NCBI GenBank assembly: GCA_938008215.1
Contig: CALLLS010000004.1
Span: 1-64,000, forward strand
Reading direction: 5' to 3'
DNA from: an uncultured Verrucomicrobiales bacterium
GTDB taxonomy: Bacteria; Verrucomicrobiota; Verrucomicrobiia; Verrucomicrobiales; Akkermansiaceae
Length of the DNA: 64,000 nucleotides
Position 1 is the stretch's first letter. Each line of letters begins with the position of its first letter. The position numbers and the translations under genes were made by a program. A model generated the notes under the pieces. It was not told where the DNA came from. It saw only the letters and a list, made by a program, of their open reading frames with translations, and made no database searches. This document shows positions 9,372 to 32,290 of this stretch, one piece after another.

Positions 9372-10349
9372 ATGTTTAAATCTTTCTTAGCCACTTTCTT
9401 TTGCTCTCTCTTAATTATCTCTTCTGCACCGATCCAAATTACGGGGGTAGCAGCTACCGTTAATGGAAAGGTGGTAACAATTAAAGAAGTGAGGGGGCTT
9501 TTAGCGCCTACTATTTCTCTTCTAAAGACTAAGTATCCTCGCGGAGGGGAAGCTGCTGAAAAAGAATTTAAAGAGGAGCAAGAGCGGGTATTAGAGCAAC
9601 TTATAGAAAATAAAATTATTCTAAGTGAACTAGAAGAACAAGGTGCAACTATACCAGATTTTGTGATCGATCAGGAAGTGAAGAGAATCATCAACGAGTT
9701 TTTTAATGGAAAGGAAGCGGAGTTCAGAAAAAGTCTCACTGAATCTGGAACCACAATGCGAAGCTTTAAAGAAACGCAAAGAGAAAAAATTCTCGTTCAA
9801 GCCTTGAAGTCGCAACAATTTGGTCAAAATCTTGCTCCGCCTACACCAGAGGAATTACAAGCTCAATACACCAAGAGAAAATTAGAGTATAGAGACCGCA
9901 CTCAGGATAGAGTAACCTTCTCAAAAATCTTCATCCCGATGGCGTCTGATGACCCTGACGCAACACCTGAGAGTCAGCTGAACCTGGCGGATAAGATAGC
10001 GTTAAATTTAAGAAACGGGGCAGACTTTTCTAAGACTGCTAAAGATAGCTCTGCGGACGCCTATGCGGATGAGGGAGGTAGTTGGCCGTCGACACTAAGA
10101 ACAGACTTAGAGCCATCCTTTTCTGAGCTGCTTTTTCAAGCTCCTATTGGGAAGATTAACGGTCCTTATAAAGACCCTAGAGGCTTTACGATCGTGAAAG
10201 TTACTAAGAAAGACTTTGGTCCTAGCCCACCGCTAAGTGAAATTAAAGATAGATTAGCTAAGGAAGTAGAATCTGAGAAGTATAAAGAGAAGTATAGCCG
10301 ATGGATAGACACGTTAAAGAAGAAGGCGATTATCGACCGTAGAATGTAA
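9372..10349 (+). CDS. Periplasmic peptidylprolyl isomerase, SurA/PpiC type
   Basis: This 325-residue exported protein has a signal peptide (SFLATFFCSLLIISSAPI). A SurA-like N-terminal chaperone region follows (VNGKVVTIKEVRGLLA, then helices with LIENKIILSELEEQ). One parvulin domain lies at about residues 175-300, with KIFIPMASDD, GADFSKTAKDSSADAYADEG and GFTIVKVTK. Family members help fold outer-membrane proteins in the periplasm. Only one PPIase domain is present, where E. coli SurA has two. It is the first gene of a rightward set: 5 bp separate it from an OmpA-domain protein and a LytM-type peptidase follows, so an envelope-assembly role is likely. Confidence 0.87.
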   Translation: MFKSFLATFFCSLLIISSAPIQITGVAATVNGKVVTIKEVRGLLAPTISLLKTKYPRGGEAAEKEFKEEQERVLEQLIENKIILSELEEQGATIPDFVIDQEVKRIINEFFNGKEAEFRKSLTESGTTMRSFKETQREKILVQALKSQQFGQNLAPPTPEELQAQYTKRKLEYRDRTQDRVTFSKIFIPMASDDPDATPESQLNLADKIALNLRNGADFSKTAKDSSADAYADEGGSWPSTLRTDLEPSFSELLFQAPIGKINGPYKDPRGFTIVKVTKKDFGPSPPLSEIKDRLAKEVESEKYKEKYSRWIDTLKKKAIIDRRM

Positions 10350-10354
10350 CCATC

Positions 10355-11635
10355 ATGAGAGTTCATTTAAAACATGGGAAAGCAAGCCCTGTGATTACGG
10401 CATTTTTACTGATGCTCTGTGTCGTAGTCGTCGTATGGTTATTCCTTGTCAGGGGCTGTAGTAAAGAGGCTTCTGAAAATGTAGAACAAAACGAAACAGA
10501 AAAGCCTCCTATCTCAGGTGTCTCCTCAGTGGAAAGCATTGGAGAAGTCAGTTCTTCATCAATAGAGAAGTTTGAAGACCCAGCAACATTGATGAGTGCT
10601 GTTAAGGCATCATTCCAAGAAGAAAATTTAGACATGCTTGATCAGTTGATGAGTAAAGGTCTTACTGATGATGAACGTTCTAAGCTTGAAGACTTCATTA
10701 TGCGGAATCATGATAAAGAGTTAAGCATACGTGAGGTCGGTGAAGTAGAGATTAATAAATTAGCTCGATGGGCTATTAAGGTAGAAGGGTCAGAGGAAAA
10801 AATCAGTTTAGATGTGAGAAAAACAGTGGATGGAAGCTGGATTGTTGAAGGTGTTAATTTAGATGGGATTAAAGACGCCAGAGGTGACATTTTCTCTGCG
10901 ACTGGCTCAGAAGGAGATTCCTTATCGGTAGCTGATTTATTTATCATGGCTATTTTGAACAGAAACTTTGATAAGGCGTTAGCCTTTGCAGATACCGCAA
11001 GTATTTCAGATGCAAAGGTGGCATCGCTTTGTATCATGTTTGAAGAGGGGGATTATAGCCTTCAAGCGCGTAAGCCCTTACGTTCTTTATTCCAGAGAGA
11101 GGGGGTTTCTGCATATATGGCAAATGTACAAGCCGCTAACGGTGAAGAAAAAGGGCAGTTCGGTCTTACCTTAGAAAGAAAGAACCAGCAAGAGGAGTGG
11201 AAAGTAACAGAGATTAATTTAGACAGTCTCCTTTCTGATTACATTCAGCGTGTAGCAGGCGGTGATGCCTATTATACGCCGTTAGTGCAAAACCCTGAAG
11301 GAGGTGAAACCCTAGCGCTATACTTTGATTTTAGCGAAGAAATGCTTACGAAAAGAGCGGAGACTCAACTAGAAATTATTGCAGGCATACTTAGAACAGA
11401 TACGAGTAAAAAGTTAACACTCAGTGGGCACGCGGATGCCATTGGTTCTGACGAAGATAATAATAAGTTATCTCTTAAACGTGCTCAAAATGTTAGAGAA
11501 TTTCTGGTGGGGCAGGGGATCAGTGAGAGCCAAATTGATATTCGGGCTTATGGGGAAACTAAGCCTCGAAGAAAGAATGATTCTGACTTAGGGCGCCGTG
11601 CGAACCGAAGAACGGAAATCTATTTAGATTTTTGA
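10355..11635 (+). CDS. OmpA/MotB-domain envelope protein with N-terminal anchor
   Basis: This 426-residue protein has one N-terminal membrane segment (VITAFLLMLCVVVVVWLFLV, residues 13-32). A long acidic, partly helical periplasmic part follows, and then an OmpA-like peptidoglycan-binding domain in the last 110 residues. The latter shows ALYFDFSEEMLTKRAETQLE, LSGHADAIGSDEDNN, LSLKRAQNVREFLVGQG and RRANRRTEIYLDF. The domain is expected to bind diaminopimelate in the cell wall, so the protein probably ties the inner membrane to peptidoglycan. The middle region (about 50-310) matches nothing I know. It lies between the SurA-like gene (5 bp) and the LytM-type gene (11 bp) and is probably co-transcribed with both. 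Confidence 0.83.
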   Translation: MRVHLKHGKASPVITAFLLMLCVVVVVWLFLVRGCSKEASENVEQNETEKPPISGVSSVESIGEVSSSSIEKFEDPATLMSAVKASFQEENLDMLDQLMSKGLTDDERSKLEDFIMRNHDKELSIREVGEVEINKLARWAIKVEGSEEKISLDVRKTVDGSWIVEGVNLDGIKDARGDIFSATGSEGDSLSVADLFIMAILNRNFDKALAFADTASISDAKVASLCIMFEEGDYSLQARKPLRSLFQREGVSAYMANVQAANGEEKGQFGLTLERKNQQEEWKVTEINLDSLLSDYIQRVAGGDAYYTPLVQNPEGGETLALYFDFSEEMLTKRAETQLEIIAGILRTDTSKKLTLSGHADAIGSDEDNNKLSLKRAQNVREFLVGQGISESQIDIRAYGETKPRRKNDSDLGRRANRRTEIYLDF

Positions 11636-11646
11636 AATAATTAGGA

Positions 11647-12480
11647 GTGAACATCGTAAATAGAGTTTTACCATTTATTGCGCTCCTATTCTTAGTGGTG
11701 ATGGTTTCCACCATCTTTTCTATGCATTCTGAGGCTAATTATACTCCAGAAGTCTCTACTCTCCGACCTCAATTAGCCGCTATTCCACAAGGTTTTCCCA
11801 GAGTAGTGAAAGATGGCTCAAATATAACTCCGAGCTTTGATCCTAGATTTGCTAAAATTGACCCTGTCACAGCATTTAAAATTCCGCGTGCAATCAGCTT
11901 CTCCTCACCAATGGGGGGACACTCTGGAGTGTTTACATATAATGCGCAGGCATATTGGGAAGATAACCCGCACCGACGCGGGCACCACACTGGAGATGAC
12001 TTAAATGGGATAGGGGGAATGAATAGTGATTTAGGAGATCCTGTTTATGCGATTGCAGACGGATTGGTCGTATACTCTGGGGAGCCTTCTCCAGGGTGGG
12101 GGGATGTCGTTATCCTTGCACACCGTATTCGAATGAATGGAGAGGAGAAAATAATCCAATCGCTCTATGCTCACCTTAAGCAGAGGATCGTCCGGGTAGA
12201 TGAAATGGTTTCTAGAGGCTCGCAGATTGGAACAGTAGGCTCTGCTGATGGGCAATATCTAGCGCATCTCCATTTTGAAATTAAGAAAGGACTAAGCCTG
12301 AATATTGGCCCAGGATACCTTAGGGTGCCAAGGACACACCTATCTCCAGAAAAATTTCTGCAGGAGCTTCTAAAATATGAAGAAGTCTTCATAAAGCCAC
12401 TTTCTACTCAGCCAAAAGCAAGTTGGGAGGATCTAGAAATGAATAATGTGGAGCGTCTTTTGGAGGTTCTAGATCGGTAA
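11647..12480 (+). CDS. M23-family (LytM-like) metallopeptidase
   Basis: The 277-residue exported protein has an N-terminal hydrophobic signal (VLPFIALLFLVVMVSTIF). The LytM/lysostaphin peptidase domain spans about residues 110-225. Zinc ligands and catalytic histidines are visible as RGHHTGDDLNG, SLYAHLK and AHLHFEIKKG, so an active endopeptidase that cuts peptide cross-links in peptidoglycan is plausible. The start is a GTG at 11647 directly after AGGAG, which is very close spacing, so the true start may differ. It is the third gene of a set with a folding chaperone and an OmpA-type anchor, which points to joint work in the periplasm. Confidence 0.85.
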   Translation: MNIVNRVLPFIALLFLVVMVSTIFSMHSEANYTPEVSTLRPQLAAIPQGFPRVVKDGSNITPSFDPRFAKIDPVTAFKIPRAISFSSPMGGHSGVFTYNAQAYWEDNPHRRGHHTGDDLNGIGGMNSDLGDPVYAIADGLVVYSGEPSPGWGDVVILAHRIRMNGEEKIIQSLYAHLKQRIVRVDEMVSRGSQIGTVGSADGQYLAHLHFEIKKGLSLNIGPGYLRVPRTHLSPEKFLQELLKYEEVFIKPLSTQPKASWEDLEMNNVERLLEVLDR

Positions 12481-23087: not shown

Positions 23088-23426
23088 ATGAAATATCAGT
23101 TATTCATTCGTCATACTTTTTGTGCAGTTATAATTTTTCTACAATTTTCATGTAGTGATAAAAATTTCACTTCTAGAGAAGATATAGTAACTCCTAAGCC
23201 CACAGAAAAATTAGCGAAGTTGAATGGGAAAAATCTAGAGGAGCTACAATTAGGATATCAGGTTTTTAACGCTAATTGTGTGGTATGCCATAATGTAAGG
23301 ATTCCGAATACGGTAAACTTCCCGCAATGGCATGCTAAAATTGAAGATATGGCTAACAAAGCGGCTCTTTCCAATGATGAGGAGTCAGCTCTTCAGTCTT
23401 ATCTAGAGATTTTTGCAAGTCGCTAG
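23088..23426 (+). CDS. Small monohaem cytochrome c lipoprotein
   Basis: The 112-residue protein has a lipoprotein signal (FCAVIIFLQFSC, lipobox cysteine near residue 22) and one haem c attachment site, CVVCH, near residue 63 (YQVFNANCVVCH). Distal methionine candidates occur near the C terminus (IEDMANKAALS), followed by a final helix EESALQSYLEIFASR. This is the layout of a short class I cytochrome c anchored to a membrane, suited to carry electrons in the periplasm. No oxidase or dehydrogenase genes adjoin it. It starts 40 bp after the SahR-like gene and may be co-transcribed with it, without obvious functional reason. Confidence 0.83.
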   Translation: MKYQLFIRHTFCAVIIFLQFSCSDKNFTSREDIVTPKPTEKLAKLNGKNLEELQLGYQVFNANCVVCHNVRIPNTVNFPQWHAKIEDMANKAALSNDEESALQSYLEIFASR

Positions 23427-24582: not shown

Positions 24583-26973
24583 TTATTTATTAGGTTCTTT
24601 CCACTCAGGAAATTCTTCTCTTAAGGCACTAAGCATAGATGAACTTACAGGATTCTCTTGGATCTTTAGGATTTCAATTGCTTTCCATAGTGCATAAGGG
24701 CGAATAGTCTCATCACCCTTAAACTTATCTGCAACGAGCAGGTAAATATCCTTAGCTGTATTTTTTTCACCCTTTCTTAACCTTCCTTCAGCGATAACAA
24801 ACTTTAGACCAGCTTCTATCGTGCCTCTGGGTTCTTGGAATAGAGCTTCTTCTGCGACAGCAATCGCTTCATCTACCTTATCTAGACCTAGCAAAGCTTG
24901 TGATTTATCTAAGAGGGCGTCGGTTTTCCAGAAACTATCTTCTTCTCGCTCTAATACGTAATTTACCGCTTCTTCAGCTTTTTCATACTGTTTAGTCTCT
25001 AACGAAGACTTTGTTAAATATCGCCAAACATCAATTGGTGTTTCTAATGGTTCTTCTCTATTAGCAATGCTGTCTAAAACTTCTGTCGAGAGTTTATAAT
25101 CCTCTTTTTGAAAACGTTGAATACCAAACCATGCTAAGATTCTTGGTGGGAAATATTTTCCTGGGACGTCATGCTTCATTCGTATGAAAGCCTCTTTCAT
25201 GATATCTGCATCTTGGAGGTAATAAGAGGAGAGAAAAACTCTTGTCCCTGCAGGTTCTTTATATGTTGAAGGATCAAGATTACGCGCTTTATTAAACTCA
25301 GGAATGCATTCTGCAAATTTCTCCTGCTTGAAGTATCCCCATCCCATCCAGTAGTGTGCATGTGCTTGTGCTGCTTTTTTTAAGCCTGGGAATTTTTGCA
25401 GTAAAAGCTGAGACGCAGTAATGAGTTCATCATAATTACGTTCTCGACGGTAAACTTTAATCATTCCTTGCAGGGCTGTGGCAGCTAGTGCGGATCCAGA
25501 TGACTCTTTAAGAACTTTTTGAAAATCATTTAGTGCTGAAGCGTAGTTGTTATTAGAGAGATAAGCATTCCCTCGCCTAACATGCACTTCAAAAGCGAGG
25601 TCGTGAGCAGGAAACTCATCAATGAAATGTCCCGCTGCATTTATGCAACCTGCATAGTCCTCAGCCTCAGAGAGGCATACTAATTTTTTGAAGAGGAAGT
25701 TTGCTTGTAGAGTGCTAGGTAAGTCTTTTGAATCGATAGAGCGATATACCTTTGCTGCTTCTTCTGGCATTCCAGAATGTAAAAGTGATTCCGCTTTAAA
25801 TACGCCGATGAGTTTATGCCATTCATTCTTTTTCTGATAGGAACCGTAAATTTCTTTAAAGGCGTCTGCCTGATCTGCAACATTTGCTCCATCTAAGCGG
25901 TAGAAGCAGTATAGCCTTCGGAAGCTAGCCTCAAAGCTTAGAGCACTGTTAGGAACAAGCCGCTCAACGGAAGTGAACGCAGTGATAGCTCTCTGGAAGT
26001 AGTCTTTTTTAAGTAGGGCATATCCAGCAAGAAGATAAGTGTTAGAGGTAACAATTGGCTCACTCGGATAGACACCTTTCTGGTAGTTGTCTATGAGGGC
26101 ATCTAAGTTGTCATTATCAAAGTAGATTTGATATAGCTCGCTTTGTGCCTTTGCTTTATAATCGTTCTTTATTCCTGGAGTATCGATTGTCTTAGCTATG
26201 ATCTCCTCTGCTTTTTCTTGGTTGCCAAGTCGTGCATTAGTAATACCAGTATATAATAAGGCTTCTACTTTGATATCGGGTGCTACTTTTGCGTTATTTG
26301 CTAGTTTGTCGAAGTGCATTAACGCTTCCTCAAACTCACTTAGCTCAAAGAGAATGTGAGCAAGAGCGAGGCGTGAAGTATCTTGATATGAGCTCTCTTT
26401 TTCATTAACAAGCCTTCTCAAGGGCTGAAGTGCCTTTTCTTTGCTACCGCTTAGCATGAGGCAACGTGCTTGTAGATACAGTGCTTGTTGTCTCACTGCT
26501 GGCTTTTCACTTTGTTGAGCCGCTAGTTTGTAGTATTTTTCGGCAGATTTATAGTTTTCCTCATTATAGCGCTGTGTCCCTAGGCGATAAGCAGAGGCGG
26601 CTACGAGTTGCCCCGTTTTGTATTTTTTAATAAGAAATTCAAAGTTTGCTTCGGCAGAATCGATATTTCCAGTAAGGAGCTGACTTACAGCCATGCGGTA
26701 ATAAGCTGTTTGCCTGTCTTTATGACCACCATGATTTTGCAGGTAATTTCTAAAGCTGAGTTCAGCTGTCCTTAAGGCACTGCGGCTTTCGTAATAATCT
26801 TTTTGGTTTCGTCCGTACTCGTATATTTTAGAAGCTCGGAAAAACGCTTCATCTGCCTCGTTTTGAGCTTCAAGAATAGATGGTGTTCCTACTAGTAAGA
26901 GGATTACTAATGAGAGGGTATTTAAAGTTTTGGAGTGTCTGTTAGACATAAGTATAAGGCGGAGAGAAGGCAT
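24583..26973 (-). CDS. Exported tetratricopeptide-repeat protein (796 aa)
   Basis: The protein begins with a signal peptide (LSLVILLLVGTPSILEAQ near residues 17-34) and is otherwise made of helical TPR units to the end. Examples are AYYRMAVSQLLTGNIDSAEA, AYRLGTQRYNEENYKSAEKY, ALNDFQKVLKESSGSALA and HYWMGWGYFKQEKFAECIPE. No enzymatic domain is recognisable. Such solenoids serve as periplasmic protein-binding scaffolds. It starts 1 bp after the preceding, similarly sized TPR protein, and both follow exbB-exbD, so the two probably form partners of the ExbBD motor. The two TPR proteins differ clearly in sequence and may be an ancient duplication. Confidence 0.8.
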   Translation of the reverse strand: MPSLRLILMSNRHSKTLNTLSLVILLLVGTPSILEAQNEADEAFFRASKIYEYGRNQKDYYESRSALRTAELSFRNYLQNHGGHKDRQTAYYRMAVSQLLTGNIDSAEANFEFLIKKYKTGQLVAASAYRLGTQRYNEENYKSAEKYYKLAAQQSEKPAVRQQALYLQARCLMLSGSKEKALQPLRRLVNEKESSYQDTSRLALAHILFELSEFEEALMHFDKLANNAKVAPDIKVEALLYTGITNARLGNQEKAEEIIAKTIDTPGIKNDYKAKAQSELYQIYFDNDNLDALIDNYQKGVYPSEPIVTSNTYLLAGYALLKKDYFQRAITAFTSVERLVPNSALSFEASFRRLYCFYRLDGANVADQADAFKEIYGSYQKKNEWHKLIGVFKAESLLHSGMPEEAAKVYRSIDSKDLPSTLQANFLFKKLVCLSEAEDYAGCINAAGHFIDEFPAHDLAFEVHVRRGNAYLSNNNYASALNDFQKVLKESSGSALAATALQGMIKVYRRERNYDELITASQLLLQKFPGLKKAAQAHAHYWMGWGYFKQEKFAECIPEFNKARNLDPSTYKEPAGTRVFLSSYYLQDADIMKEAFIRMKHDVPGKYFPPRILAWFGIQRFQKEDYKLSTEVLDSIANREEPLETPIDVWRYLTKSSLETKQYEKAEEAVNYVLEREEDSFWKTDALLDKSQALLGLDKVDEAIAVAEEALFQEPRGTIEAGLKFVIAEGRLRKGEKNTAKDIYLLVADKFKGDETIRPYALWKAIEILKIQENPVSSSMLSALREEFPEWKEPNK

Positions 26974-26974
26974 T

Positions 26975-29356
26975 TTATCTCAGTTGCTCAAGTTCTTTTT
27001 GATATTCTTTAATAAGAGGTTGAGTATTTAAAGTCTTATCTGGTTTGAGGGATTTTATCAAATAGTTTAGAGCATTAACCTTTAAGTCATGAGTATCTTT
27101 TCCTCCGAATTGGTAAACTCGCTTAAGAACTCGCGTGCCATTTTCTTTCTCTCCAGTCTCCATTTCTATCTTGCCATGGAGAAGTAGCAATTCATGCCTA
27201 AGTCTCCCTTCAGGGTTAATTAATAGCGCTTCTTCGACTTCTTTTTTAGCGTCCTGAGCGCCGTTCAAATAATAAGTAGCAGTTCCAAAGCGGAATAGAT
27301 TGAGTGCTTTTCGGTATGCTCCTAAGTCTTTTGGTTTTAGAAAATTAGTGATAACTCTTAATTCAGTCCAATTCTCAGTCATAAAAGCAACTTGGGCATA
27401 GTTCTCTAGAATTGGAGGGGTGTATGCTTCTATTTCGTATAGCTTTTCTAGAGATATATATTTATTGAAGTAGTTCCATGCTTCACCCCAATTTTCATTC
27501 TTGGAATCTTCCAGGGCAAGCATGAGATATATAGGTTCAGGTAGAGAACTCCCTCCAAGCTTTTCATAATTAATGACTTCCTTTCTCAAAGCTACGGAAT
27601 CTTTTTCATTATAGGCAATAAGAGCGAGAAGCTCTGCCGTTTCTTCTGGTTGAAAACTTCTACTGAGTGCTCTTACTTTTAAGAAGTTTTGCTTCGCCTC
27701 CACGAATTTTTCTAATTTGTATTGTGAGTAAGCGAGCCAGAAATACCACTCTGCTTTCTGCTTACTAGGAGTGCCCTTACTGAATTTTAGGTTAAGACTT
27801 TCGTAAGCACCGACTGCTTTTTGGTAGTTTTTTTGCTCTAGATTAAGTTTAGCAATATATTGCCATGATGAACGTAGGATATCTTCAGGAGCGTTCTTGT
27901 GGTTGATAACTTCTTCAAATCCTTTAATTGCTTCACCCGTATGGGTTAATTCTGCTAGAATAGTGGCTTTGTCATAAAGAAGATAAGTTGTTCTAGAGTC
28001 TTCTGGGTATTTTCTAGCGTATTGATTTATATAGGAAATGGCTGAGTCTTTTTCTTTCAGTAAGACCGCTATTTTACAAATTCGGTAACCAATGGTAGGA
28101 ATGTTTTCTGGTGCTATTTTATCAGTGTCTAGGCTGTTATAGACTTTAAGAGCCTCCTCATAATTAGAGTTTTCATAAAGAATTTCAGCTTTTAAGAGCT
28201 TAACGCTCTCATACCTTTCATCTGATGAAAATTGTTCTTGGTAGGTCTTTAAAAAATGATTGGTTTCATTTATTGATACCTTCTTTCGGGCTTTAGATGT
28301 AATTTGATAGTATGCGACTTCAAAGCCCGTAGATGTCCCCTCAGAAAGACGTGCTAGTTTAGAGTAATATGATTGAGCTTTTTTTGTGTCATCTTGCGCT
28401 TGATATGATTTAGCAAGTAGCTCTAAGCGCTTTAAGGTTTGAGGATCGGATAGCCCTTTATCTCCGTATCTTTCATACTGAGATATAACTTTCCAATCCT
28501 TTTTTTTCTCAGCATTCACCATGAGGATAAGTGCAGAAGAGGGGTGCCATTCTTTAAGGTCTCCCATTTTTAGAACTTTTTTGAAATAGTTAGTCGCTTT
28601 ATCTATATCACCTAACTTCTGGGTTATGATAGCGCATTTATATGTAGATAGGGCTTTGATTTCCGTGTTTGAATCTTTTGTGCAATTTTGAAAAAATTGA
28701 TAAGCTTTATTAAACTCGCCATTTTTAAAGTAAGTTTCTCCAAGGTGAAATTTGCTGTGACTATGATATTTTTTTCCTTCTTCTTGATTTAGAACAAACA
28801 AGAAATCATCACGCGCTTTATTATACTTCTCAAGTTTCTGATGAGAGAGAGCTTTCATATATACTCCGAAAACACTGCTTGAACTTTGAGGGAGTTCTTT
28901 GTTTGCAATAGTGAGATATTGAATGGCTCTAGCGTAGTCCTTGGTTTCGTATTGTGCCAAACCAAGCTGGAGAGCTGCCGCACCTGCTTGAGGTCCCGTT
29001 GGGCTTCTTTTTAAGACTTCTAAGTATGCTTGGAGAGCCTCTTCATTTTTTCCTAGTTTGCTAAGACAGCTCGCTAGATAAAAGTAGCCAGAAGCAGAAT
29101 TTGGGTGCTCAGGGAATTTCTCTAAGTATTTAGCGAACTTCTCAGCAGCAAGTTTGTATTCAGCAGGTTTATTTTTTTTGCTTGCCTCGTTATAAGACAT
29201 CTGGGCGATGGTATATAGGTCATCAGCCAGATCTGCTTTTAATGGGGTAGCTGTGGTAAATGAGCTAAGAGGGAAGGCGGAAAAAAAGCAAATTAAGACT
29301 AACCGCTTAAAAGTTTTGAGTTTCTCTAAGTAAGTGAATTTAGGGCTGTGGTTCAT
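26975..29356 (-). CDS. Exported tetratricopeptide-repeat protein (793 aa)
   Basis: An N-terminal export signal (RLVLICFFSAFPLSSFTTAT) is followed by about 750 residues of TPR-type helices. Examples are YLASCLSKLGKNEEALQAYL, AALQLGLAQYETKDYARAIQ, KFHLGETYFKNGEFNKAYQF and WFWLAYSQYKLEKFVEAKQN-like units. No other domain is seen. The gene starts 5 bp after exbD and ends 1 bp before a second TPR gene of nearly the same length. The tight spacing suggests equal production. In other bacteria TolQR-like motors work with TPR proteins, for example in gliding or Tol systems. Here the link is based on operon structure. Confidence 0.8.
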   Translation of the reverse strand: MNHSPKFTYLEKLKTFKRLVLICFFSAFPLSSFTTATPLKADLADDLYTIAQMSYNEASKKNKPAEYKLAAEKFAKYLEKFPEHPNSASGYFYLASCLSKLGKNEEALQAYLEVLKRSPTGPQAGAAALQLGLAQYETKDYARAIQYLTIANKELPQSSSSVFGVYMKALSHQKLEKYNKARDDFLFVLNQEEGKKYHSHSKFHLGETYFKNGEFNKAYQFFQNCTKDSNTEIKALSTYKCAIITQKLGDIDKATNYFKKVLKMGDLKEWHPSSALILMVNAEKKKDWKVISQYERYGDKGLSDPQTLKRLELLAKSYQAQDDTKKAQSYYSKLARLSEGTSTGFEVAYYQITSKARKKVSINETNHFLKTYQEQFSSDERYESVKLLKAEILYENSNYEEALKVYNSLDTDKIAPENIPTIGYRICKIAVLLKEKDSAISYINQYARKYPEDSRTTYLLYDKATILAELTHTGEAIKGFEEVINHKNAPEDILRSSWQYIAKLNLEQKNYQKAVGAYESLNLKFSKGTPSKQKAEWYFWLAYSQYKLEKFVEAKQNFLKVRALSRSFQPEETAELLALIAYNEKDSVALRKEVINYEKLGGSSLPEPIYLMLALEDSKNENWGEAWNYFNKYISLEKLYEIEAYTPPILENYAQVAFMTENWTELRVITNFLKPKDLGAYRKALNLFRFGTATYYLNGAQDAKKEVEEALLINPEGRLRHELLLLHGKIEMETGEKENGTRVLKRVYQFGGKDTHDLKVNALNYLIKSLKPDKTLNTQPLIKEYQKELEQLR

Positions 29357-29361
29357 AGTCC

Positions 29362-29793
29362 TTAGTTCACTTTTCTAGTAGAGAATGAGATATTCCAAAT
29401 CCCAGCTTTTTTACAGAGGTCAATGACTTCAACTATTCGTTGGAAATCTACACCTGAAGCTCCTCTTATCCTAACAGGTTGGCGTGATTTTCCAGTTTTC
29501 TCATCTTTGAATGCTTCAGCAATGCTCTTTAACTTACTGCTCAGTTCGCCTTCTGAGAGAGCCTGACCGTCTACAGTTATGACGCCTCCATCACGAACGT
29601 TAAGAATGATTTCTCCGAGGGGTCTTTTATCATTCTCGCCCTGGTTAGCGGTAGGAACGCTAACATTAAGATCTACCTCATCACGTGAAAACTTCCATGT
29701 TACAATGAAGAAGACGAGGAGTAAGAATACTACGTCTATCATTGGTGCCAGAGGAATTCCAGCTTGTGGAGGTGTGGGTTTTTGAAATTTCAA
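29362..29793 (-). CDS. exbD: ExbD/TolR-family proton-channel protein
   Basis: The 143-residue protein has one membrane helix with the conserved proton-carrying aspartate (PLAPMIDVVFLLLVFFIVTW, residues 16-35). A periplasmic domain follows (GEIILNVRDGGVITVDGQAL, PVRIRGASGVDFQRIVEVID). ExbD/TolR forms an ion-driven motor with ExbB/TolQ in the inner membrane and passes force to a periplasmic partner. The exbB-type gene lies 43 bp upstream, and two TPR genes follow after 5 bp. No tonB, tolA or pal gene is present in the window, so the partner is probably one of the TPR proteins or is encoded elsewhere. Confidence 0.9.
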   Translation of the reverse strand: MKFQKPTPPQAGIPLAPMIDVVFLLLVFFIVTWKFSRDEVDLNVSVPTANQGENDKRPLGEIILNVRDGGVITVDGQALSEGELSSKLKSIAEAFKDEKTGKSRQPVRIRGASGVDFQRIVEVIDLCKKAGIWNISFSTRKVN

Positions 29794-29836
29794 TTCTCTA
29801 TAATTATTTAGAATTTTAATTATCTACACTATCAAC

Positions 29837-30634
29837 TCAAAAGTCACCTGGTGTAAGAGGGTCATAAGAGCGCTTATTCTTAGTAACTTTCTCAGTTTCT
29901 ACTGCTGATTTCACGGAAGACATGACAGCCATGAGGTGTGTAGCGGCTGCTTCTAACTCCGCGATAAAGCGCTGTACCCTTCCGCGGAATATAGAATAGA
30001 AAATAACTGCGATAATCCCTATCACAAGTCCAGAGGCGGTAGTTATCAGGGCTTCTGAAACACCACTTGCGAGTTGCATTTGTTTTACGCCTTCAAAGTT
30101 TCCTTCCGCAATTTCCATGAAGGACTTAATCATGCCTATAACAGTTCCAAGAAGCCCGACCATGGGCGCTACTGCTCCGATATCAGCGAGATATGCGATG
30201 CGCTGTGAGAGAAGTCCCGCCTGGCGAGACCCTTCTGCCTCCGCTACATCTCTGATATCACCTAGCGAGGCGGACGGTGTGGCTCTGTGGAAGTCTACAG
30301 CCCGCCCGATGATCTTAGATACTGCAGATGAGTTCCGATCACATATTTCGCTTAGATTATGATAATCACCTTGGATAATCATATTTTCTGCCTGTGTCAT
30401 AAAGCGATTACTGACTACAGCTCCTTTTCTAATAATAAGAAGATAGAGAAAAATTAAGAATACGGTGAGGACAGAGAGAAAAGCTAAAGGATACATCATG
30501 ACCCCGCCTTGCTTAAGGATTTCAATGAAATCGACCGTGATGGGAGCAGCTGTGCTAGCCTCTGAATCTGAGGTCCGGGCTGATGCTACTTGGATACAGG
30601 AAAGAATGAAGAGAGATTTAAGAAAGAGTTTCAT
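29837..30634 (-). CDS. exbB: ExbB/TolQ/MotA-family proton-channel protein
   Basis: The 265-residue protein carries an N-terminal export signal (FLKSLFILSCIQVASA), then a first membrane helix (VMMYPLAFLSVLTVFLIFLY), a cytoplasmic loop, and the paired helices of the MotA/TolQ/ExbB channel. YLADIGAVAPMVGLLGTVIG and SEALITTASGLVIGIIAVIF are the family signatures. ExbB pentamers conduct protons around ExbD. The extra signal peptide before the first helix is typical of one ExbB subgroup. It is the first gene of the leftward exbB-exbD-TPR-TPR-GT61 operon and is divergent from uvrC. The C-terminal extension is basic (VTKNKRSYDP). Confidence 0.9.
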   Translation of the reverse strand: MKLFLKSLFILSCIQVASARTSDSEASTAAPITVDFIEILKQGGVMMYPLAFLSVLTVFLIFLYLLIIRKGAVVSNRFMTQAENMIIQGDYHNLSEICDRNSSAVSKIIGRAVDFHRATPSASLGDIRDVAEAEGSRQAGLLSQRIAYLADIGAVAPMVGLLGTVIGMIKSFMEIAEGNFEGVKQMQLASGVSEALITTASGLVIGIIAVIFYSIFRGRVQRFIAELEAAATHLMAVMSSVKSAVETEKVTKNKRSYDPLTPGDF

Positions 30635-30745: not shown

Positions 30746-32290
30746 ATGTCTCAACCAGATTTACTTAAAGAGAAGCTCCAAGATGCACCGCATAAACCAG
30801 GGGTCTATATTCATAAGGATCGGTTGGGAGGGGTTATTTATGTGGGTAAGGCACGAGATCTAAGGAAAAGAATCTCCAATTATTTTTCGCCCTCCAGAAA
30901 GATGAAGGCAGACCGGAAAACACGGGCGCTTATAGAAACGATTGCGGATTTCGATTATCATATCGTTAGGAATGAGCAGGAGGCACTGCTTCTAGAGTCT
31001 AAGCTTATTAAGCAATATCGTCCGCGTTATAACATCGTGTTCCGTGATGATAAACGGTTTAAAATGGTGAAGGTGAGCTTAGATTCTCCATGTCCCAAGT
31101 TTCAGGTAACACGGATTAAAAAGGCAGATGGTGCGAAGTATTTTGGCCCCTTCGCCCACTCAGGCGCTTTGCATGACACATTAACATATTTTAATAATAA
31201 ATTCGGTCTAAGAACGTGTCGCGCTGTAAACCCTGGGGAAAAGGACTATAAGCATTGTAATGCCGACGTGATTCGTAATTGCTCTGCACCTTGTATCGGT
31301 AAGATTTCAGCTGAAGATTATAAAGCGAGAGTGCAAGAAGTGTGTGACCTCTTCAGTGGAAAGGAAAAGCGTAGCTTTATTAAGGAAATAGAAGGCGAGA
31401 TGCAGGCGGCGGCTGCGGACATGGACTTCGAGCGCGCGGGTAAGCTCCGCGATGTTATGGAAAACTTTAAGAAAACGCTTACTCCCACACGGCAGTTTAA
31501 AAATACCCTAGACCTTCCGTCTACCGTGCAACCTGCCGATGACCTTTCTGAGCTTTCAGACCTTCTAGGGCTGGAAGCTCCTCCCAGAGTGATGGAGTGC
31601 TTTGATATTTCTAATGTGTCGTCTACCCATATTGTGGCATCTATGGTGCGTTTTACAGACGGGAAGCCTGATAATAACAAGTATAGGAGGTATCGCATAA
31701 GGACGGTTGAGGGGCAGGATGACTTTGCCTCCATGGCGGAGGTGGTAAGGAGGCGCTACAGTAGATTGCTTCAAGAGGGCGCAAAGCGAGCGAAGGAGAT
31801 AGGCATAGAAGAGAGCCAAGAGTTACCAGCAGACTTAGCCAAAAGAGTAAACGCTGGACTGCCAGATCTAATAATCGTGGATGGAGGGAAAGGGCAACTG
31901 AGTTCTGCGGTGCGTGAGCTACAGAGGCTTGGGCTATATGACCACCCCATTATTGGGTTAGCGAAGAAACACGAAGAAGTGTTTTTTTATGGAGAATCTG
32001 ATCCTATTCTAATCCCACATGATAAGGGGGCTCTGAAGCTGCTACAACGGATACGTGATGAGGCGCACCGCTTCGCTAATAATTATAATGAGCTTTTACT
32101 TAGAAAGCGCATTAAGGAGTCTATCCTCGACGATTGCCCTACGGTTTCTCCCAAGCGCAAGGAGCTTTTACTCAAGAAGTTTGGCTCAGTTCTAAGAATT
32201 AAGAAAGCCACGGCGGAGCAAATCGCAGAAATCTCAGGGATTTCATTGAAAGGAGCGCAAGGCATCCTAGCGTGGTTAAAAGAGAGTTGA
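30746..32290 (+). CDS. uvrC: Excinuclease ABC subunit C
   Basis: UvrC makes the two cuts beside DNA lesions in nucleotide excision repair. The 514-residue protein has the GIY-YIG domain (KPGVYIHKDRLGGVIYVGKA, residues 16-36), which makes the 3' cut. A UVR motif for UvrB contact follows (MDFERAGKLRDVMENFKK, near 225-242), then the UvrC RNase-H-like domain with ECFDISNVSSTHIVASMVRF and DLIIVDGGKGQLSSAV (5' cut). Helix-hairpin-helix motifs close the C terminus (AEISGISLKGAQGILAWL). It is shorter than E. coli UvrC (about 610), mainly between the cysteine-rich part and the C-terminal half, but no key block is missing. Confidence 0.95.
   Translation: MSQPDLLKEKLQDAPHKPGVYIHKDRLGGVIYVGKARDLRKRISNYFSPSRKMKADRKTRALIETIADFDYHIVRNEQEALLLESKLIKQYRPRYNIVFRDDKRFKMVKVSLDSPCPKFQVTRIKKADGAKYFGPFAHSGALHDTLTYFNNKFGLRTCRAVNPGEKDYKHCNADVIRNCSAPCIGKISAEDYKARVQEVCDLFSGKEKRSFIKEIEGEMQAAAADMDFERAGKLRDVMENFKKTLTPTRQFKNTLDLPSTVQPADDLSELSDLLGLEAPPRVMECFDISNVSSTHIVASMVRFTDGKPDNNKYRRYRIRTVEGQDDFASMAEVVRRRYSRLLQEGAKRAKEIGIEESQELPADLAKRVNAGLPDLIIVDGGKGQLSSAVRELQRLGLYDHPIIGLAKKHEEVFFYGESDPILIPHDKGALKLLQRIRDEAHRFANNYNELLLRKRIKESILDDCPTVSPKRKELLLKKFGSVLRIKKATAEQIAEISGISLKGAQGILAWLKES

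Follow-up and report, generated by a model that had tools for sequence, protein, structure and literature searches.

The ExbB-ExbD motor encoded in the window (the whole stretch of 64,000 nucleotides analysed here, from an uncultured Verrucomicrobiales bacterium) forms, together with a large TPR solenoid, a real and ancient unit, which lies beside uvrC across the family, spans the order and is found in no fewer than 12 further families of the Verrucomicrobiota. The operon may constitute the motor and the periplasmic hub of a Tol-like envelope machine that does without TolB and whose ExbBD motor moves an OmpA-tipped arm, a reading held tentatively, at close to even chances. The gene for this force-transmitting arm probably lies at another place in the genome.

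Table 1. Genes of the motor locus and its divergent neighbour in the window.
Feature	Coordinates	Strand	Basis
exbB/tolQ-like motor subunit, 265 aa	29837..30634	-	PF01618 99 bits; orthologue alignment
exbD/tolR-like motor subunit, 143 aa, TTG start	29362..29793	-	PF02472 88.9 bits; 22-sequence alignment
TPR1, exported TPR solenoid, 793 aa	26975..29356	-	TPR families; AlphaFold model; tree
TPR2, exported TPR solenoid, 796 aa	24583..26973	-	TPR families; AlphaFold model; tree
GT61 (DUF563) glycosyltransferase, 371 aa	23453..24568	-	PF04577 85.7 bits
uvrC, divergent neighbour, marker of the orthologous locus, outside the machine	30746..32290	+	Pfam UvrC domains; same position in many relatives

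The five genes exbB, exbD, TPR1, TPR2 and GT61 form one compact string on the minus strand (Table 1), separated by gaps of 43, 5, 1 and 14 bp, in the order given by the initial annotation. Its account of an operon devoid of tonB, tolA and a TonB-dependent receptor also agrees with the gene content, as none of these lies within the operon. The boundaries of 24583-30634 drawn at that stage enclose exbB to TPR2 but leave out GT61. Neither promoter-like signals (14 in the region versus 16.5 expected) nor terminator-like signals (9 versus 6.6) were found in excess. The reported 1-bp junction between the TPR genes is true for the first ATG of TPR2 only; if translation starts at a second ATG, 24 bp downstream, the signal peptide is more typical and the gap to TPR1 widens to 25 bp. 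As a conserved feature the junction was rejected, since the spacing is about 21 bp in two congeneric genomes and the genes overlap by 4 bp in genus g43 and part of g46. Elsewhere in the window, a SurA-like chaperone, an OmpA-domain protein (426 aa) and an M23 peptidase are encoded consecutively on the plus strand (9372-12480), forming an envelope-biogenesis cluster.

The GT61 gene had been regarded as a component of the system, an assignment rejected for lack of conservation. Of the two other genomes of the genus, only G145 has it at the locus, G151 lacking it there, and all other loci compared are without it. The gene is a co-directional accessory neighbour, a local extra outside the conserved unit. 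Convergent with it lies a gene for a small secreted cytochrome c-like protein with a sub-threshold PF00034 match (23088-23426, plus strand).

Linkage of exbBD to TPR across Verrucomicrobia, put forward for checking at the outset, is conserved in searches begun from either end of the unit. A search with TPR1 alone matched 138 of 142 genomes of the order. In the foreign loci fetched from it, exbD adjoins TPR in 29 of 29 and exbB is present in 28, the remaining one being seen once the locus was extended. A search of GTDB genomes with the ExbB alignment yielded 80 loci, 76 of them with the order exbB-exbD-TPR, including Akkermansia, Luteolibacter, Haloferula, Persicirhabdus, Prosthecobacter, Verrucomicrobium, Chthoniobacter and Spartobacteria; by a strict rule, uvrC adjoins exbB in 30 of the 80. 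Beyond the order, at least 12 families of the same phylum have the unit, while other members of the phylum (e.g., families f9, f18, f23, and f25) gave weak matches only. In the order-wide search, the TPR gene or the unit is apparently missing from two genomes, both more than 90% complete (G130 and G044).

The first two proteins belong to the ExbB/ExbD (TolQ/TolR) motors by their PF01618 and PF02472 matches and by the residues of the proton path. Asp20 of ExbD, located within the transmembrane helix, is invariant in the 22 sequences of the family alignment, and Thr164 and Thr199 of ExbB are invariant in the alignment of family orthologues. Judged by these residues, the motor looks competent.

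The N-terminal segment of each TPR protein resembles a signal peptide. The AlphaFold model of TPR1 is an all-helical, TPR-like solenoid over residues 43-792 (mean pLDDT 89.5), and that of TPR2 is a continuous superhelix over residues 34-787 (mean pLDDT 92.9); a fold search with the TPR2 model returned generic TPR or superhelical proteins only, with low TM-scores. The full-length CpoB/YbgF model (NF008068, cut-off 383) gives the two proteins 19.9 and 15.9 bits, far from a match. Both exceed the cut-off of the short TIGR02795 (125 and 117 versus 90.1), a model that scores generic TPR stretches too. A loose lipobox pattern occurs in 3 of 75 TPR sequences, so lipid anchoring is not general.

TPR1 and TPR2 are only 20% identical. 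In a tree of 63 TPR proteins, the TPR1 proteins of genera g1, g5, g9, g43, and g46 form one clade, and the TPR2 proteins of the same genera form another, placed within the family's single-TPR group, together with the single TPR of most of its genera. This topology fits a single old duplication in these five genera, with TPR1 as the faster-evolving copy. Separate duplications are found in g6, in g3, and in one Akkermansia. In g5 and g9, TPR1 remains with exbBD and TPR2 stands alone elsewhere, without exbBD. The view of the pair as an invariant unit was abandoned in light of these duplications; the pair is a lineage-limited product of paralogue duplication, and most genera have a single TPR.

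Evidence on the arm comes from relatives outside the order. In families f8 (G233, G262, G273, and G288) and f12 (G294), the gene directly after TPR encodes a transmembrane helix with an S-x3-H motif, a linker, and an OmpA domain. In G278, G312, and G335, the product of the gene at that position is built alike but has a vWA tip, and a vWA arm directly follows exbB-exbD-TPR in loci L266, L267, and L277; in three deeper families the post-TPR gene is a vWA arm. TolA and TonB carry the same S-x3-H motif in their helix (PMC12204202); of 1154 background genes, only 6 have a helix motif of this kind. No arm gene follows TPR in the window or in the loci of its order. An inventory of the window genome, made by family and protein searches, contains one OmpA-tipped protein of the arm design (439 aa, contig C23), which combines a transmembrane helix carrying His and a small residue four positions before it, a linker, and a globular tip. 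The C23 gene is an orphan, with no exbB or exbD nearby. All 133 genomes sampled from the order contain a homologue of it, and the His of the membrane helix is kept in 28 of 30 aligned homologues; the two exceptions are genomes of g5, with Phe in its place.

In all five f8 and f12 genomes, the best match to the C23 protein is the gene directly after TPR in the exbB-exbD-TPR operon. The C23 protein, rather than the TPR proteins, is most likely the arm of the ExbB-ExbD motor. The similarity between C23 and the f8/f12 arms is detectable in the OmpA domain only.

A further arm design was encountered beside other motors. In L149 (6281-7822, plus strand), and also in L153, L160, L043, and L203-L210, the ExbB-ExbD-ExbD genes are followed by one for a protein with a His-containing transmembrane helix, a Gly-rich linker, and a squalene-cyclase-like alpha/alpha toroid, a candidate new arm type. 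Up to 13 homologues of this toroid-arm protein are found per genome in the family. A 513-aa gene located before exbB in one lineage was considered as the published vWA arm and rejected, as Pfam assigns its product to the squalene-cyclase-like toroids.

In the proposed Tol-like machine, ExbB-ExbD would convert the proton gradient into movement of an arm anchored in the inner membrane, the C23 protein with its TonB/TolA-like helix, linker, and OmpA domain. The TPR solenoid, single in most genera and duplicated here, would bind the C23 protein and act as a periplasmic scaffold through which the motor and its arm are connected with the outer membrane and with the synthesis of peptidoglycan, a role suggested by analogy with CpoB in Tol-Pal. 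The machine would share with Tol-Pal (TolQRA-TolB-Pal-CpoB) a proton-driven TolQR-type motor, a TPR protein in the operon, an anchored S-x3-H arm encoded in the operon in relatives of the window, and, in Akkermansia, a link to a class A PBP-like enzyme. It differs in its arm tip, which is OmpA or vWA and not the TolA C-terminal domain, and in its TPR protein of about 800 aa, as opposed to the small CpoB. The locus itself is not a Tol-Pal locus, for the operon contains neither a TolA-type arm nor pal. A search for TolB (TolB_N, PF04052) detected none in the window genome or in any of 38 relatives, while the control genomes of E. coli, Caulobacter, and Bacteroides were all positive; a strongly diverged TolB could escape the model.

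The link to peptidoglycan comes from Akkermansia and its close kin, where a PBP1A-like gene lies directly after exbB-exbD-TPR in all 17 loci of one set and all 15 of another, the two sets overlapping in part. Genus g2 is counted here as Akkermansia because its loci group with named Akkermansia loci through the common downstream gene. The glycosyltransferase domain of the PBP1A-like protein matches solved enzymes. In one of the 17 Akkermansia-type loci (L049:6150-7955), the SxxK motif of the transpeptidase reads DLFT, so the protein may function as a glycosyltransferase whose transpeptidase domain is inactive. In E. coli, CpoB is the TPR protein of the tol-pal operon and regulates PBP1B under the control of TolQRA (PMC7391070); the PBP1A-like end of the Akkermansia operon recalls this CpoB-PBP1B pairing.

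Several observations count against the Tol-like reading. Within the order of the window, the C23 gene is unlinked to the motor, and the genome has other motors that lack a clear arm (C37 and C20). The restriction of the likeness with the f8/f12 arms to the OmpA domain and the His-to-Phe replacement in g5 also weigh against it, as do the apparent lack of TPR in G130 and G044 and the placement of the locus beside a Mul1-like cluster in g4 and its kin.

The last point bears on the main rival, according to which the motor powers uptake of large glycoproteins or polysaccharides in the manner of Akkermansia Mul1, with the TPR protein as a periplasmic docking scaffold. According to a review, MUL genes encoding pili and periplasmic complexes are required for mucin accumulation (PMC12418764), and Mul1 resembles the window locus in combining ExbB-ExbD with a large exported TPR protein. 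Directly upstream of exbB-exbD-TPR in L149, L153, L160, and L043 lies a Mul1-like cluster (TPR-1000, ExbB, ExbD, ExbD, and a toroid arm). The window genome, although not that of an Akkermansia, has a second motor cluster on contig C45 (L058:3452-9137), ExbB-ExbD-ExbD-TPR (1003 aa)-Mul1B, whose last gene scores 200 bits with NF052542 (cut-off 75). The Mul1 type is nevertheless a separate locus here, distinguished by two ExbD subunits, a different 1000-aa TPR protein, and the Mul1B gene, and no member of the Mul1B family occurs at the window locus. A search of the same genome with TPR1 matches TPR1 and TPR2 only, not the Mul1-type TPR. Genes for a receptor, a hydrolase, or a binding protein are absent from the window locus; nearly every genome of the order has the unit, ones of 1.5-2 Mb among them; and Akkermansia keeps the operon with a peptidoglycan glycosyltransferase. 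Import of the Mul1 type is an unlikely function for the window motor.

The initial annotation had proposed that the force of ExbBD acts on the TPR pair itself, in place of TonB or TolA and with no arm of their kind. No other gene accompanies the motor as constantly as TPR, and the loci of the window and its order have no arm gene after TPR. The TPR proteins are, however, exported, with no lasting membrane anchor or motor-binding helix motif seen, and they are not conserved as a pair. Moreover, a TolA/TonB-like anchored transducer follows TPR in the same operon in f8, f12, and several deeper families, and the C23 homologue is universal in the order. The model loses likelihood because relatives possess both TPR and arm; the TPR proteins probably do not replace TonB/TolA, and direct transfer of force to them appears improbable.

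It is very unlikely that the window genes are a spare ExbBD pair energising a TonB encoded elsewhere, with TPR as an unrelated co-transcribed gene. A TonB and two plug-domain receptors do exist in the genome, but the sole TonB_C match lies on contig C15 with its own ExbB-ExbD, and for that reason TonB is taken not to be served by the window motor, whose locus is not a Ton system. Linkage between TPR and motor across the phylum, far beyond chance, already disfavours this reading. Of the remaining motors, that on contig C20 (L059:4068-5926) is an ExbB-ExbD-like pair; the gene after it encodes a membrane-anchored protein of 257 aa that matches no family. A gliding or adhesion machine like AglRQS-Glt of Myxococcus, which likewise joins a TolQR-like motor to exported TPR proteins (PMC3169522), is very unlikely as well, since its components and gene order differ, the Agl motor has two ExbD-like subunits where window-type loci usually have one, motility is not indicated for the window system, and Akkermansia, which carries the operon, is described as non-motile (PMC12418764).

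Contrary to what had been supposed, this kind of gene cluster has been described: TPR genes beside tolQ/tolR-like genes and vWA transducers were reported from PVC bacteria in 2025 (PMC12204202). The loci with a vWA arm (L266, L267, and L277) represent the same kind of cluster. The window's order differs from it in lacking the vWA arm at the locus, with no anchored vWA protein at that of the window, in usually having one ExbD instead of two, and in an arm candidate that is OmpA-tipped and encoded apart from the motor. The OmpA-tipped arm, its orphan state across the order, and the Akkermansia glycosyltransferase link were not found in that report; the literature covered was open-licence, and an earlier description elsewhere is possible.

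More broadly, it is possible, though still rather doubtful, that in the TolB-less Verrucomicrobiota ExbBD drives an OmpA-tipped, peptidoglycan-binding arm, and that a TPR solenoid of 800 residues both organises this arrangement and controls a class A PBP-like enzyme. The gene set concerned is small and directly testable, comprising exbB, exbD, TPR, the C23-type OmpA arm, and the Akkermansia glycosyltransferase, and its OmpA-tipped member joins a growing list of motor-driven arms. The proposal bears on how the outer membrane stays tied to the dividing cell wall where a complete Tol-Pal system is lacking, and the Verrucomicrobiota include the gut symbiont Akkermansia. If true, the proposal would represent an independent solution for coupling proton power to the growth of the cell wall and the outer membrane.
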